From Phenylobacterium sp. (lineage in GTDB: Bacteria; Pseudomonadota; Alphaproteobacteria; Caulobacterales; Caulobacteraceae): DNA of 64,000 nt. Position numbers and translations under genes: made by a program. The stretch spans positions 434,001 through 498,000 of the forward strand of contig NZ_JAUSCJ010000022.1 of the NCBI RefSeq assembly GCF_030651185.1. Reading direction: 5' to 3'. A model generated the notes under the pieces. That model saw only the letters and a program-made list of their open reading frames with translations. It was not told the origin of the DNA and searched no databases. This document shows, one piece after another, positions 43,019 to 59,400 of this stretch (its first letter is position 1; every line of letters begins with the position of its first letter).

Positions 43019-44362
43019 ATGCGCTATCTGCCCCTGACCCCGGCCGACCGGGCCGAGATGCTCGGTGTCATCGGCGCGGCCACCATCGATGACCTGTTCG
43101 TCGACGTGCCCCCCGCCGCCCGCAAGGCCGACCTCTTCGACCTGCCGCTGCACGCCGGGGAGATGGAGGTGGAGCGCGAGCTCTCCGCCCTGGCCGCCAG
43201 GAACCGTCCGGCCGGCGCCGGGCCGTTCTTCTGCGGGGCAGGGGCCTACAAGCACCACGTGCCGGCCACGGTGGATCACATCATCCAGCGGTCTGAGTTC
43301 CTCACCAGCTACACGCCCTACCAGCCGGAGATCGCCCAGGGCACCCTGCAGGTGCTGTTCGAGTTCCAGACCCAGGTGGCGGCCCTGACCGGCCTGGATG
43401 TGGCCAATGCGTCGATGTACGACGGCTCCACCGCCTGCGCCGAGGCGGTGATGATGGCCCAGCGGGTCACCCGCCGGAAGAAGGCGGTGCTCTCGGGCGG
43501 CCTGCACCCGCACTATGCGGCGGTCACCCAGACCATCGCCCATGCCGAGGGCATGGACATCACCCGCCAGGCCGTGGCCATCGACGCCGAGGCCGCCGTG
43601 CTCTCGGCCATCGACGCGCAGACAGCCTGTGTCGTGGTCCAGACCCCCAACGTGTTTGGCGTCGTCACCGACGTGAGCAAGATCGCCGAGGCGGCGCACG
43701 CCGCCGGCGCCCTGCTGATCGTGGTGACCACCGAGGCGGTCTCCTACGGCCTGCTGAAGTCGCCCGGCGAGATGGGCGCGGACATCGCCGTGGGCGAGGG
43801 CCAGTCCATCGGCGTCGGCCTGAACTATGGCGGCCCCTATGTCGGTCTCTTCGCGGCGCGTGAGAAGTTCGTGCGCCAGATGCCGGGGCGGCTCTGCGGC
43901 GAGACCGTGGACGCCGACGGCGCGCGGGGCTTCGTGCTGACTCTCTCGACCCGCGAGCAGCATATCCGCCGCGAGAAGGCGACATCCAACATCTGCACCA
44001 ACTCCGGGCTCTGCGCCCTGGCCTTCACCATCCACATGACCCTGCTGGGGGAGCGCGGCCTGCGCGAACTGGCGGCCCTGAACCACAGTCGGGCCCGCGA
44101 GCTGCGCGAGGCGCTCGCCGCCGTGCCCGGGGTGGAGATCCTGTCGCCGCGCTTCTTCAACGAGTTCGCGATCCGCGTTCCGGGCAAGGCCACCGAGGTC
44201 GTCGAGGCCCTGCTGGCCGACGGGGTGGTGGCCGGGGTGCCCTTCAGCCGTCTCGATCCCAAGGCCGGGATGGACGACGTCCTGCTGGTGGCCGCCACCG
44301 AGACCACGACGCGCGATGATATCGCCGCCTTCGCCAAGGCTCTGAAGGGGAGGACCGCCTGA
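43019..44362 (+). CDS. gcvPA: Glycine dehydrogenase subunit 1 (P protein, N-terminal half)
   Basis: This 447-residue protein is the first half of the PLP-dependent glycine decarboxylase, encoded as two genes here. [19 protein letters not shown] and [24 protein letters not shown] are family motifs. Its stop overlaps the start of gcvPB by one base, so the halves are made in equal amounts. Confidence 0.96.
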
Positions 44363-45945
44363 TGGCCATGTCCAATATCGGCCGCCCGACCCAGCCCCAG
44401 GCTGCCGGCGCCAGTTCCGTCCACACCTCTCTGACCGGCGCCCGCGGCCTGCTGCAGGACGAGGCCCTGATCTTCGAGATGGATGGCTGGGACAAGACCG
44501 GCGTCGATTTCGACCTGCCGGCCCTCGACGCCTCGGACCTCGGCGACCTGGTCCGCACCGCGCCCATCGGCCTGCCGGGGCTGTCGGAGCCCGAGGCCAT
44601 GCGCCACTTCGTGCGCCTGTCCCAGAAGAACCACGCCATCGACCTGGCCCTCTACCCGCTGGGCTCGTGCACCATGAAGCACAACCCGCGCCTCAACGAG
44701 AAGATGGCCCGCCTGGCGGGCTTCGGCGACCTGCATCCGATGTCGCCGCAGTCGACCACCCAGGGCGCCCTGGAGCTGATGGACCGCCTGGCCCACTGGC
44801 TGAAGACCCTGACCGGCATGCCCGCCGTGGCCCTGTCCCCCAAGGCCGGCGCGCACGGCGAGCTGTGCGGCCTGCTGGCCATCAAGGCGGCTCATGAGGC
44901 CAAGGGGCAGGGCCATCGCCGCACGGTGCTGGTGCCCACCTCCGCCCACGGCACCAACCCGGCCACCGCGGCCTTCGTCGGCTATGACGTGGCCGAGATC
45001 GCCCAGACCGCCGACGGCCGGGTCGACCTCGCCGACCTGGAGGGCAAGCTGTCGCCTGACGTGGCGGCGATCATGGTCACCAACCCCAACACCTGCGGCC
45101 TGTTCGAGCGCGACATCATCGAGATAGCCCGCCTGACCCACGCGGCCGGAGCCTATTTCTACTGTGACGGCGCCAACTTCAACGCCATCGTCGGCCGGGT
45201 GCGCCCGGGTGACCTGGGTGTCGACGCCATGCACATCAATCTGCACAAGACCTTCTCCACGCCCCACGGCGGCGGCGGGCCGGGCGCGGGTCCGGTGGTG
45301 CTGTCGGCGGCGCTCGCCGCCTACGCTCCCACCCCCTGGGTGGTGAGCGCCGGCGAGGGCTTCAAGCTGGTGGAGGAGGCCGAGGACGAAGCCGCCGCCA
45401 CCTTCGGCCGCATGGTGGCCTTCCACGGCCAGATGGGCATGTTCGTCCGCGCCTATGCCTACATGCTCAGCCACGGCGCCGACGGCCTGCGCCAGGTGGC
45501 CGAGGACGCCGTGCTCAACGCCAACTATATCAAGGCCAAGCTCTCGCCGGTGATGACGCCGGCCTTCCCGGACGGGCCCTGCATGCACGAGGCCCTGTTC
45601 GACGACAGCTGGCTCGAAGGTACCGGGGTCACCACACTGGACTTCGCCAAGGCGATGATCGACGAGGGTTTCCACCCCATGACCATGTACTTCCCGCTGG
45701 TGGTGCACGGGGCGATGCTGATCGAGCCGACGGAGACGGAGTCCAAGCAGGAGCTGGATCGCTTCTGCAACGCCCTGACCCTGTTGGCCCAGGCGGCCAA
45801 GGCTGGCGATGTGGAGCGGTTCACCGGCGCGCCATACCTCGCGCCCATGCGGCGCCTGGATGAAACCCTGGCAGCCCGCAAGCCTCGCCTGACGTGGCGC
45901 CCAGAGCCCACAACTGTGGCTCCGGCGCCGATGGCGGCTGAATAG
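44362..45945 (+). CDS. gcvPB: Glycine dehydrogenase subunit 2 (P protein, C-terminal half)
   Basis: This 527-residue protein carries the PLP lysine in HINLHKTFSTPHGGGGPG. YPLGSCTMKHNPRLNEKMA and SAHGTNPATAAFVGYDV are further GcvP motifs. It pairs with GcvPA to decarboxylate glycine. It is the last gene of the riboswitch-controlled operon; no L protein gene is near. Confidence 0.96.
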   Translation: MAMSNIGRPTQPQAAGASSVHTSLTGARGLLQDEALIFEMDGWDKTGVDFDLPALDASDLGDLVRTAPIGLPGLSEPEAMRHFVRLSQKNHAIDLALYPLGSCTMKHNPRLNEKMARLAGFGDLHPMSPQSTTQGALELMDRLAHWLKTLTGMPAVALSPKAGAHGELCGLLAIKAAHEAKGQGHRRTVLVPTSAHGTNPATAAFVGYDVAEIAQTADGRVDLADLEGKLSPDVAAIMVTNPNTCGLFERDIIEIARLTHAAGAYFYCDGANFNAIVGRVRPGDLGVDAMHINLHKTFSTPHGGGGPGAGPVVLSAALAAYAPTPWVVSAGEGFKLVEEAEDEAAATFGRMVAFHGQMGMFVRAYAYMLSHGADGLRQVAEDAVLNANYIKAKLSPVMTPAFPDGPCMHEALFDDSWLEGTGVTTLDFAKAMIDEGFHPMTMYFPLVVHGAMLIEPTETESKQELDRFCNALTLLAQAAKAGDVERFTGAPYLAPMRRLDETLAARKPRLTWRPEPTTVAPAPMAAE

Positions 45946-45959
45946 CTACAGTCTGGACG

Positions 45960-46088
45960 AAATTTAACCCGCCCGAACCTTTACGAGTCGCTCGGACGTT
46001 CTCATACCTGTTGGTGCGCGGTGGCCGAACGACCTCCCCAGATCGGGCGGGCCGCGCATTCCAGGTTGAATCTCTAGTCCTACGCCAT
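45960..46088 (+). repeat. Diverged leader duplication, copy A
   Basis: AAATTTAAC at 45960, CCTTTACGA with a GAGTC site at 45985-45989, CGTTCTCATA to 46006 and GTCCTACGCCAT at 46077-46088 recur in the same order and spacing in copy B (46213-46342). Copy A has TAG where copy B has the GTG start, and ATC for the following ATG, so no protein begins here. The 383-base gap between gcvPB and the gene at 46329 contains little besides the two copies. Confidence 0.7.
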
Positions 46089-46212
46089 CTCTGGTGGGCG
46101 CATCTTCGCGCACGTCAGTGACGGATCGGCCGAACCTGGCTCGCCGGGGTTTGGGCTCGGGGGAAAGTGTGGCTCTGGCGCCGCGCGATCCCCGAAATGA
46201 GCATAAACCTTA

Positions 46213-46342
46213 AAATTTAACGCGGACGTCGCCTTTACGACTCTCTTGTGCGTTCGCATATGCGCTTAACGACGACCGCCTGTCCTCCCCCGAACAGGCG
46301 CACGTCAGAACCCCTGGTTTGAACCAAAGTGTCCTACGCCAT
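46213..46342 (+). repeat. Diverged leader duplication, copy B, probable promoter of the gene at 46329
   Basis: AAATTTAAC at 46213, CCTTTACGA leading into a GACTC site (46239-46243), CGTTCGCATA to 46260 and GTCCTACGCCAT at 46331-46342 match copy A with nearly the same offsets (118 against 117 bases from first to last block). The GANTC position is kept in both copies though its middle base differs. This copy leads into the GTG start at 46329, so it likely contains that gene's promoter, possibly methylation-sensitive. Confidence 0.65.
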
Positions 46343-46730
46343 GCCCAGCGTGCGCGCCCTGCGCGCCTCCGATGAATTCGCCCGCGAGGTTGTGGGACGG
46401 ATTGTGCGCGTTGGTCTGGCGTCGCTCGGCGTGCTGATCGTGCTGGCCGGGATCGCCGTGGCGCCCCTGCCGGGTCCCGGTGGTCTGCCGGTGATCGTGG
46501 TCGGCCTGATGCTGCTACTGCGCAATTCCTTCAAGGCCCGGCGGACCTTTGTCCGTTTCCAGCACGCTCACCCGAAGATGGTGTTTCCGATCCGCCGCCT
46601 GCTGCGGCGCGAACCGGAGATCCTGCTGGTGGCCTGGCAGCAGGCCCTGCGCATTGAGCGTCTGATCGTGCCGCGCAAACTGCGCTTTGCGGTCAAGACC
46701 CGCCGGCGCTTCCGCCGCCGTCCTTCCTGA
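46329..46730 (+). CDS. Small PGPGW-like transmembrane protein
   Basis: This 133-residue protein has two hydrophobic segments (about 25-65) around PLPGPGGLPVIVVGLMLLL, resembling the PGPGW-type putative membrane family, followed by a strongly basic C-terminal tail (RKLRFAVKTRRRFRRRPS) that would lie in the cytoplasm. GTG at 46329 or ATG at 46341 may be the start. The function is unknown. A hairpin at 46740 ends the transcript. Confidence 0.75.
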   Translation: MSYAMPSVRALRASDEFAREVVGRIVRVGLASLGVLIVLAGIAVAPLPGPGGLPVIVVGLMLLLRNSFKARRTFVRFQHAHPKMVFPIRRLLRREPEILLVAWQQALRIERLIVPRKLRFAVKTRRRFRRRPS

Positions 46731-46739
46731 AACCGAAAA

Positions 46740-46759
46740 CCCCTCCCGCGAGGGAGGGG
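46740..46759. terminator. Bidirectional hairpin terminator candidate
   Basis: CCCCTCCC and GGGAGGGG form a perfect 8-bp stem with a GCGA loop, between two convergent genes (ends at 46730 and 46800). AAAA precedes it, giving a T-run for the left-going atp transcript. Confidence 0.7.
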
Positions 46760-46799
46760 CTATCGCCGAGCATAGATGTCGGACGCCCGAGGGCGGCGG

Positions 46800-47303
46800 C
46801 TATTGCAGCTTGGTGGCCAGTTGGCCGAGCGCGCCGTCGATCAGCGGATCGCTCTTCATGCCGGCCAGGCGCTTGGTTAGCACCACCTCGGCGGCGGCTG
46901 CGGCCAGGTCTGCAGCCGCGGCGCGAACCTCGGTGGCGGCCTGGGCCTCGGCATTGGCGATGCGGCGTTCCGCCATCTGCTGGCGGCGAGCCAGGCTCTC
47001 CTCCAGCTTGGCCTTGGCTTCGGCGGCGTAGAGTTTCGCCTGTTCCTCGGCGGCGGCCATCATTTCCTGGGCCTGGGCCTCGGCCTCGGCCCGCTCGATC
47101 TTGAGTTGAGCCAGCAGGTGCTGGGCCTCCTCGCGGATGCGGGCGGCCTCGTCGAGGTCGGACTGAATCTTGGCGGTCTGGGCGTCAAGGCTGGCGTTGA
47201 TCAGCTTGGGCGCCTTGGCCCCGAAGATCACGATGCCGAGGAAGATCAGCAGGCCGACGCCGACCCACATCTCCGCTTCGGCGGGGTTCAGGAAGGCGGG
47301 CAT
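46800..47303 (-). CDS. atpF: ATP synthase F0 subunit b
   Basis: This 167-residue protein has an N-terminal membrane helix (about 12-30) and a long charged helix forming the peripheral stalk. It overlaps the b' gene by one base and ends the F0 operon. Two different b-type subunits are normal in Alphaproteobacteria. Confidence 0.94.
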
Positions 47304-47926
47304 CAGGCGGCTCCTTGGGCGGTCATGGCCGCGTCGACCTCGGCCGTGGTCATCTTCTGACCGGTCAGCTTCTGGACGATGGCCTGCGACGTTTCCACGG
47401 CGATACCGCGGACGTTGGTCATGGCCTGGTCGCGAAGACCGCGGATGCGGGCCTCGGCCTCGTCCATCTGCGCCTGGAGGCGCGCGTCCTCGGCCTTCTG
47501 GCTCAGGGCCAGATCGGTGGCGGCCTTGGCCTTGGCGTCGGCGGCGACCCGCCGGGAGCGGTTACGGGCTTCGGCGATCTCGGCCTGGGCGGCGGCGGCG
47601 TGCGACTCCGCTTCAGCCTGGACGCTGCGAGCCTGGGCGACCGCCGCGGCGATGGTGGAGGCGCGCTCGTCCCGGATCCGGCGCAGCTTCGGTACGAAGA
47701 CCTTGGCCAGCAGGACATAGAGGACGGCGAAGATCAGGAAGAGCCAGACGATCTGGCCGCCCCAGTACTCGAACCTGAACTGGGGCAGTCCGCCGCTCTC
47801 GCCGCCGTGGGCGGCGGCCTCCGTGGTGCCGGCTGAGCCATGGCCCTGCGCGGCGCCTTGGGCGTCAGCGGCGGTGTGGCCGTCGCGGAGGTCCGCGGGC
47901 GGCGGTGATGTGGTCTCGGCGGCCAT
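47303..47926 (-). CDS. atpF': ATP synthase F0 subunit b'
   Basis: This 207-residue protein has a longer hydrophilic N-terminal extension of about 50 residues, a membrane helix (about 57-76) and a stalk helix rich in alanine and charged residues. It pairs with subunit b. The extension before the membrane helix is typical of alphaproteobacterial b' subunits. Confidence 0.92.
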
Positions 47927-47998
47927 AAGGCTTGATCGTCCCTAAAACGCAGGCTGAGGACGCCCGGAGGGCGTCCCCATGACCCTGCGGATCTTGGC

Positions 47999-48223
47999 TT
48001 AGGAGAACAGGATGAGCAGGCCGAGCACGAAGGCCAGGATGCCCAGGGCTTCGGTCAGGGCGGCGCCCAGGATCAGGTTGGTGAACTGGCTGCCGGCGGC
48101 CGACGGGTTGCGCGTGGCGCCCGCCAGGAAGTGGCCGAAAATGGTGCCAACGCCGATGCCCGCGCCGATCATGCCGAGGGTCGCGAGGCCCGCGCCGATG
48201 TACTTAGCCGATTCCGCGTCCAT
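47999..48223 (-). CDS. atpE: ATP synthase F0 subunit c
   Basis: This 74-residue double-helix protein forms the rotor ring. The GAGIGVG motif (20-26) is in helix 1 and the ion-carrying carboxylate E58 is in helix 2 (LTEALGI). The polar loop RNP is at 38-40. It lies between the a and b' genes. Confidence 0.97.
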
Positions 48224-48272
48224 AGTTTTCAGTCCCGTTTGGATGTTGAGAGAGGTTGTTTGTATTCGGCGA

Positions 48273-49425: not shown

Positions 49426-49613
49426 CTGTTATGGCCTATGTGACCACGACAACGCCCGCCGCGGCCGGGGCTTCAAGTCGCGGCGGAACCTATAGAGCCG
49501 TGTGTAGTGCGTCAAGGCTGGGAAGTTATGAATTAACACGTTGAATTCAATCGTCTTTTGTTGTCGCCCTCAGGGTGGGCGCGGAGATTCGGGAAGCGCT
49601 CGCCATGGCGCGC

Positions 49614-58205: not shown

Positions 58206-59400
<1,195 letters not shown>

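Follow-up and report, generated by a model that had tools for sequence, protein, structure and literature searches.

A promoter and leader very probably left behind by a deleted tandem paralog between the gcv and atp genes of Phenylobacterium

The window considered here is a stretch of 64,000 nucleotides from Phenylobacterium sp., within which all positions are counted; its genome is referred to as G000 and its two sister genomes as G075 and G055. On the plus strand gcvPB (44362-45945), encoding glycine dehydrogenase subunit 2 (Pfam GcvP2_C 8e-22), is the left neighbour of an interval leading to a gene termed D (46329-46730, plus strand), which encodes a PGPGW putative transmembrane protein of 133 amino acids (Pfam PGPGW 4.1e-06) and is followed by the atp genes. 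Within this interval lie two similar blocks, A and B, which an earlier note made from the sequence had taken for a diverged duplication of a leader region. The repeat is real, with AAATTTAAC starting at 45960 in copy A and 46213 in copy B, CCTTTACGA...CATA at 45978 and 46232 (79% over 29 nt) and GTCCTACGCCAT at 46077 and 46331, a constant offset of 253-254 nt. The local alignment of A with B scores 34, against a mean of 16.1 and a maximum of 27 for 1000 pairs of dinucleotide shuffles, so a chance repeat is ruled out (0/1000 as good).

Both blocks, on the plus strand, have the same layout. The AAATTTAAC element (45960-45968 in A, 46213-46221 in B) stands upstream of the -35 box of a promoter predicted from the sequence, which in copy A (45980-46008) consists of TTTACG (45980-45985), a 17-nt spacer and CATACC (46003-46008), and in copy B (46234-46262) of TTTACG (46234-46239), a 17-nt spacer and CATATG (46257-46262). 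Between the predicted boxes of both copies is a GANTC site, which as previously described differs in its middle base and is kept, being GAGTC in A (45985-45989) and GACTC in B (46239-46243). Each leader then contains a hairpin (46015-46062 in A, with the loop CCUCCCC; 46268-46314 in B), after which copy B leads into D and copy A into no gene, again as had been noted, with TAG (46075-46077) at the position of the start codon. The hairpins and the TAG go beyond the earlier description, as does the finding that the repeat begins further left, in the tail of gcvPB (45912-45930 and 46165-46183, 89%).

The promoter pattern TTTACGANTC-N13-CATA, allowing up to 2 mismatches, occurs twice in the window against 0.06 expected, and twice in the entire 4.1-Mb assembly, both times at this locus, with 0 matches for a reversed-pattern control. 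It is confined to the same locus in all five genomes searched (G000, G055, G075, G050 and G026), and a covariance model of the hairpin likewise matches this locus alone in G000, G075, G055 and G050 (E up to 1, 150 first-look candidates scored per genome), which rules out a repetitive element.

The comparison with related genomes that the earlier note had proposed accounts for copy A. A PGPGW gene was found in 98 of 101 genomes of the genus, the three without a PGPGW match being dropped and one locus being counted for each of G014, G031 and G042, from which two had been retrieved. A tandem pair of PGPGW genes lies behind gcvPB in 10 of the 98 (G003, G006, G014, G017, G026, G031, G036, G050, G060 and G068), and in G050, G026, G017 and G036 an intact upstream gene, U, was located at the place of copy A between gcvPB and the atp genes. 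Alignment with G050 and G026 puts U behind a leader of the copy A type and D behind one of the copy B type. The body of U is deleted in G000, G075 and G055, in all three of which its GTG start has become TAG, with the promoter, the leader and about 12 codons retained. The suggestion that copy A may be a decayed gene start is thus borne out by an intact paralog at the same place. As the repeat includes the last codons of gcvPB, and as the second copy of the gcvPB tail in G017 and G036 still extends to GCCGAATAG, the duplicated unit was the gcvPB tail together with leader and gene.

The remnant of U (46075-46111, plus strand) begins with the TAG, and 46077-46111 aligns to positions 3-38 of U in both G050 and G026 (1/500 shuffles as good in each case). 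It is followed by a junction segment (46112-46163) which is present at the locus in G000, G055 and G075 only and is perhaps a strongly diverged part of U. Locally aligned to U, this segment gives nothing significant (41-175 of 500 shuffles did as well), although a global alignment does put parts of it onto U, and no origin was found for it among matches elsewhere, which are weak (best E 9.6e-5). From 46164 on, similarity to what follows U in G050 and G026 returns (local alignment, 0/500 shuffles as good), and 46164-46212 corresponds to the stretch downstream of U in these two-gene relatives, with the second gcvPB tail copy within it.

The trees agree with this arrangement. In a protein tree of 137 columns, with many weak forks, all 10 U proteins of Phenylobacterium fall into a single clade (SH-aLRT 96). 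The protein of the window joins the D proteins (81), in a small group made up of the D proteins of G026 and G050 and the proteins of G055, G075 and the window (94), so that D is the surviving downstream paralog. In a gcvPB tree, made without G060 and one genome lacking a gcvPB match and with G011 as a rogue row, the two-gene genome G050 falls among G000, G055 and G075 in one group (98); G026 is placed away from G000, which suggests recombination there. Over 46164-47794, which runs from D to the atpF genes, the similarity of the window to G050 or G026 falls to about 70%, with 84-92% on either side, and the atpF-type protein is 55-57% identical, which points to replacement of this stretch in one lineage through recombination. 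A pair of PGPGW genes behind gcvPB also occurs in the Caulobacter loci L107, L109, L110, L114, L115 and L119, without the TTTACGANTC pattern; in the four of these loci tested the copies fall outside the Phenylobacterium U clade of the protein tree, and the pair may therefore have another origin.

Each block therefore comprises the promoter, the leader and the initial codons of one of two tandem PGPGW paralogs, and the probability that copy A is the promoter-leader of a deleted tandem paralog is put at about 0.95 to 0.97. An ancestor duplicated in tandem a unit of gcvPB tail, promoter-leader and PGPGW gene, most of U was deleted in the ancestor shared by G000, G075 and G055, and its promoter, leader hairpin and first codons survived as copy A. 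Seen in the window alone, where copy A leads into no gene, it could be supposed that there never was one and that promoter and leader alone were duplicated as a tandem promoter. This is very improbable, since relatives with the same neighbours have an intact gene behind the copy-A-type leader, copy A retains the first codons of U, and what lies behind U in those relatives is taken up again at 46164. Nor were other genes accepted here. A 39-aa frame with a GTG start running from copy A is open in G000 and G075, a 2-nt gap leaving G055 with only an in-frame piece of 31 aa. On the minus strand, 46080-46259 forms a frame that all three genomes keep open, but it spans promoter B and has a differing far end, with lengths of 59 aa in G000 and G075 and 84 aa in G055; it is probably a by-product of conserved promoter DNA.

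The promoter type is not peculiar to the three genomes. Among 108 PGPGW gene copies in the 98 genomes, 76 have TTTACG-N17-CATA, and the spacer is 17 in 76/76 although 15-19 were allowed; these promoter counts treat related genomes as independent. As exact TTTACG was demanded, the 32 copies outside the count include near misses, for example in G034 and G051, and some of the 32 have a different upstream sequence. AAATTTAA lies upstream of 53 of the 76 promoters, and 59 of the 76 have a GANTC site that shares the last G of TTTACG. This is in a window in which GANTC is depleted, with 91 sites found and 255 expected. In G000, G075 and G055 both copies have preserved the promoter boxes and the GANTC site.

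In Caulobacter crescentus, transcription starts with GANTC between the -10 and -35 boxes are reported as activated at 40-60 min, and the sigma-70 promoters influenced by GcrA and CcrM include ctrA P1 with GANTC at -29 and podJ P2 at -24 (PMC4287350). Changing GAnTC to GCnTC crippled mutant promoters by 60-80%, with the CCNA_00697 promoter as an exception (PMC3667746), and genes with conserved GANTC are over-represented among those misregulated without CcrM (PMC3973325). Copies A and B resemble these promoters in having the site between the boxes, at about -30 to -26 from the predicted start, in its being kept in relatives and in the equipment of the host, with GcrA and a CcrM-type (RAMA-type) methylase encoded in 6/6 genomes tested; that of the window, outside the duplication, lies at 58206-59375 on the minus strand (Pfam N6_N4_Mtase 3.9e-72, RAMA 2e-16) and is likely the GANTC methylase. 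They differ from the C. crescentus class in that the TTTACGANTC-N13-CATA pattern is single-locus in the five genomes searched. The idea that GANTC here marks control by CcrM and GcrA, which was already put forward in the earlier note, is supported by comparison. The site is kept in both copies of G075 and G055 and in the 59 promoters, and GcrA and the methylase are encoded in the genomes tested, but the downstream copy of the close relative G050 has GAGGC instead, 16 further promoters of the 76 have no GANTC at that place (17/76 in all), and 12 single-gene genomes of a second clade keep the boxes without it. By position, copies A and B would belong to the GcrA/CcrM promoter class, and it is possible that copy A is part of a methylation-sensitive tandem promoter.

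The leader that follows the promoter is equally distinctive. The leader set comprised 79 sequences, from the 76 promoter-bearing copies and copy A of the three genomes, of which 71 contain CCTCC and 8 do not. When folds are anchored on a CCTCC loop, 62 of 64 distinct leaders (identical flanks among the 71 being counted once) are better than with shuffled flanks, with a mean z of -1.7 and with values of -2.1 to -2.5 for the three copies A. In a plain fold copy B in the window has a z of -2.4; the copy A leader does not outdo shuffled sequence there (z +0.44 and +0.92), and so the case for a copy A hairpin rests on homology, covariation and the anchored test. Nor does the fold of 46105-46175 do better than shuffled (z +0.96), and RNAalifold returned no structure when given all 79 leaders in a plain MAFFT alignment. 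In place of that alignment a covariance model, R1, was built from 12 U and copy A leaders. Across 98 loci (325 kb, both strands) it yields 33 matches at E up to 0.5, and in the window, having been built without any copy B leader, it finds copy B at E 0.0011, the next match being at 0.067; its match to copy A (62.4 bits, E 1.5e-11) is to a sequence that contributed to it. A second model, R2, built from the 33 matches, gives 59, and a check of every one placed 56 at most 40 nt upstream of a same-strand PGPGW start, the other three being copy A of G000, G055 and G075.

The hairpin has 13 pairs, a CCUCCCC loop that is exposed in predicted structures, and compensatory changes. In the unfitted alignment of 12 rows, 10 cells are changed on both sides against 4.1 in shuffled alignments (0/500) and 6 pairs against 3.1 (4/500). 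The 53 distinct rows fitted to the model, fitting which itself favours structure, give 107 such cells against 39.2 (0/500) and 12 pairs against 9.6 (5/500). A known Rfam element was rejected, there being no gathering-score match at the A/B region in the window or in nine loci, and at E up to 5 the stretch 45940-46340 has one chance match only (E 3.1); it is a leader hairpin without a match in Rfam 15. In 53 named loci R2 has 30 matches at E up to 0.5, with 0 in the 11 of them titled genus Caulobacter. By conserved structure and location, as read from sequence, it is a structured mRNA leader of one gene family. It resembles the cis-regulatory leaders of Rfam in being a hairpin between a predicted start site and a start codon, genus-wide and with compensatory changes, and departs from them in the missing Rfam match, in the CCUCCCC loop and in that the downstream gene is gone in three genomes.

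A promoter and hairpin without a gene are also found in a second lineage. The single gene of twelve genomes (G007, G030, G035, G039, G043, G048, G049, G062, G065, G079, G091 and G094), which form one clade of the gcvPB tree (100) apart from G000, groups with D. All 12 have TTTACG-N17-CATA 36-48 nt into the interval from gcvPB to D, followed 15-19 nt past the promoter by GGGAG[T/C]G in a predicted hairpin with no gene directly behind (locus L074 included), and 0/12 have GANTC at the -35 edge. The loop differs, being GGGAG rather than CCUCCCC, with a mean fold z of only -1.1; R2 finds nothing in G007, and Rfam has no match in the seven loci of this clade that were scanned. From position and promoter, promoter and hairpin are inferred to be what is left of U, in which case U was likely lost twice and its coding part appears to have gone, with promoter and hairpin retained, in two Phenylobacterium lineages.

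The divergence of the sister genomes bears on whether copy A is decaying; figures are given for G055 first and G075 second, each against G000. The copy A leader (46009-46076) differs at 2/67 and 3/68 sites and the junction (46123-46164) at 2/42 and 1/42, with the codon remnant between them (46077-46122) at 6/44 (and 2 gapped positions) and 10/46. The copy A promoter block has 3/31 and 1/31 and the sequence upstream of it 5/32 and 3/32, those of copy B having 0/31 and 1/31, and 0/19 and 0/19, respectively. Over the whole block, copy A (45946-46164) has 18/216 and 18/219 and copy B (46165-46328) 2/164 and 4/164. Fourfold sites differ at 45/218 and 41/223 in gcvT, 10/73 and 11/76 in gcvH, 57/279 and 58/275 in gcvPA and 75/307 and 63/307 in gcvPB, or 187/877 and 173/881 for the pooled gcv genes (14-24% per gene), at 26/85 and 12/94 in D, and at 20-29% and 9-16% in the atp genes except atpE. 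This atpE-like gene (c subunit, named from sequence and neighbours; 47999-48223, minus strand) stands out on its own account, with 0/50 in both sisters beside neighbours at 9-29%. Two intergenic stretches have 21/66 and 14/65 (46731-46799) and 50/175 and 14/188 (49426-49613), and two of the atp operon 5/72 and 1/72 (47927-47998) and 5/49 and 0/49 (48224-48272). The leader upstream of the gcv operon, with a glycine riboswitch (RF00504, 41265-41355, plus strand, 67.8 bits), has 18/260 and 21/271.

Leader and junction of copy A together (4/109 and 4/110) are less changed than the gcv fourfold sites (Fisher about 1e-6 and 4e-6) and than the remnant (Fisher 0.034 and 0.0008, for blocks picked after the alignment was viewed). 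The leader of copy A has thus changed about as little as leaders of known function, unlike the remnant, with copy A as a whole less constrained than copy B, and the low divergence of the leader favours some function. This orphan leftover has changed less than most comparable nearby DNA, which suggests that it may still function. The opposite view, that copy A is a dead relic in decay and that the similarity of the three species comes from chance, recombination or short time, has in its favour the TAG at the start codon position in all three genomes, the free divergence of the codon remnant, the lesser constraint on copy A overall and the little change also seen in the two intergenic stretches of the atp operon. 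Yet it sits badly with the G055 figure of 4/109, against 71/241 in two other intergenic stretches, and with promoter boxes, GANTC and hairpin stem that are intact in all three genomes. As the more divergent remnant sits between two conserved stretches, one recent recombination tract is no explanation, and a dead relic is considered rather unlikely.

A function could lie in the RNA itself. Copy A would then be a small RNA gene, with a promoter and an anti-Shine-Dalgarno-like CCUCCCC hairpin and an end before D. Small RNAs with CCUCC loops exist in alphaproteobacteria, and the PGPGW leader is like them in carrying CCUCC in a hairpin loop and unlike them in being mainly an mRNA leader for which no terminator was found. 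Within copy A the hairpin has changed least, the loop is predicted to be exposed, copy A has, judged by sequence, a promoter of its own and a conserved structure, and all 12 second-clade genomes retain a promoter and a hairpin with no gene directly behind. Set against this are the hairpin's position as mRNA leader in 56 of 59 matches, the missing Rfam match, the different loop in the second clade, the absence of an R2 match in G007 and the lack of any intrinsic-terminator-like site on the plus strand of 45700-47000, and a small RNA gene is judged unlikely. The broader proposal, that the leader of the PGPGW family is an RNA with its own function which persists as a small RNA gene once the coding part of U is lost, is likewise doubtful. 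If true, a small RNA would have arisen from an mRNA leader that had lost its gene; in the window lineage it would have a promoter timed by GANTC and a CCUCCCC loop resembling an anti-Shine-Dalgarno sequence.

The reading preferred here is that copy A, given its identity as the promoter-leader of a deleted paralog, may be kept as a distal promoter of D, for which the odds are about even. Copy A most likely still starts transcription, GANTC methylation and GcrA would influence its timing, and its transcript would read through into D, since there is no intrinsic terminator between A and D. None is seen between U and D in G050 either; ends that depend on Rho are not visible from sequence. With such read-through D would now have two promoter-leaders of the same type. 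Counted against a distal promoter are the greater divergence of the whole of copy A compared with copy B, a deletion carried by three genomes only, the lower fourfold divergence on the atp side in G075 (9-16%, atpE 0/50) and the plain folding of copy A.

In the literature no study of the gcvPB-PGPGW-atp locus in Phenylobacterium was found, which is no proof of absence. The locus defines a leader hairpin absent from Rfam 15, and it presents a GANTC site in phase with the -35 box upstream of a membrane protein gene that is conserved and little studied and stands between gcv and atp genes; this promoter is a candidate for control by CcrM and GcrA. It is also an instance of a promoter-leader outliving its gene, and because the intact and deleted states occur in close species, it can be asked of Phenylobacterium whether such a leftover goes on to serve as a second promoter or as a small RNA, or has no further role.
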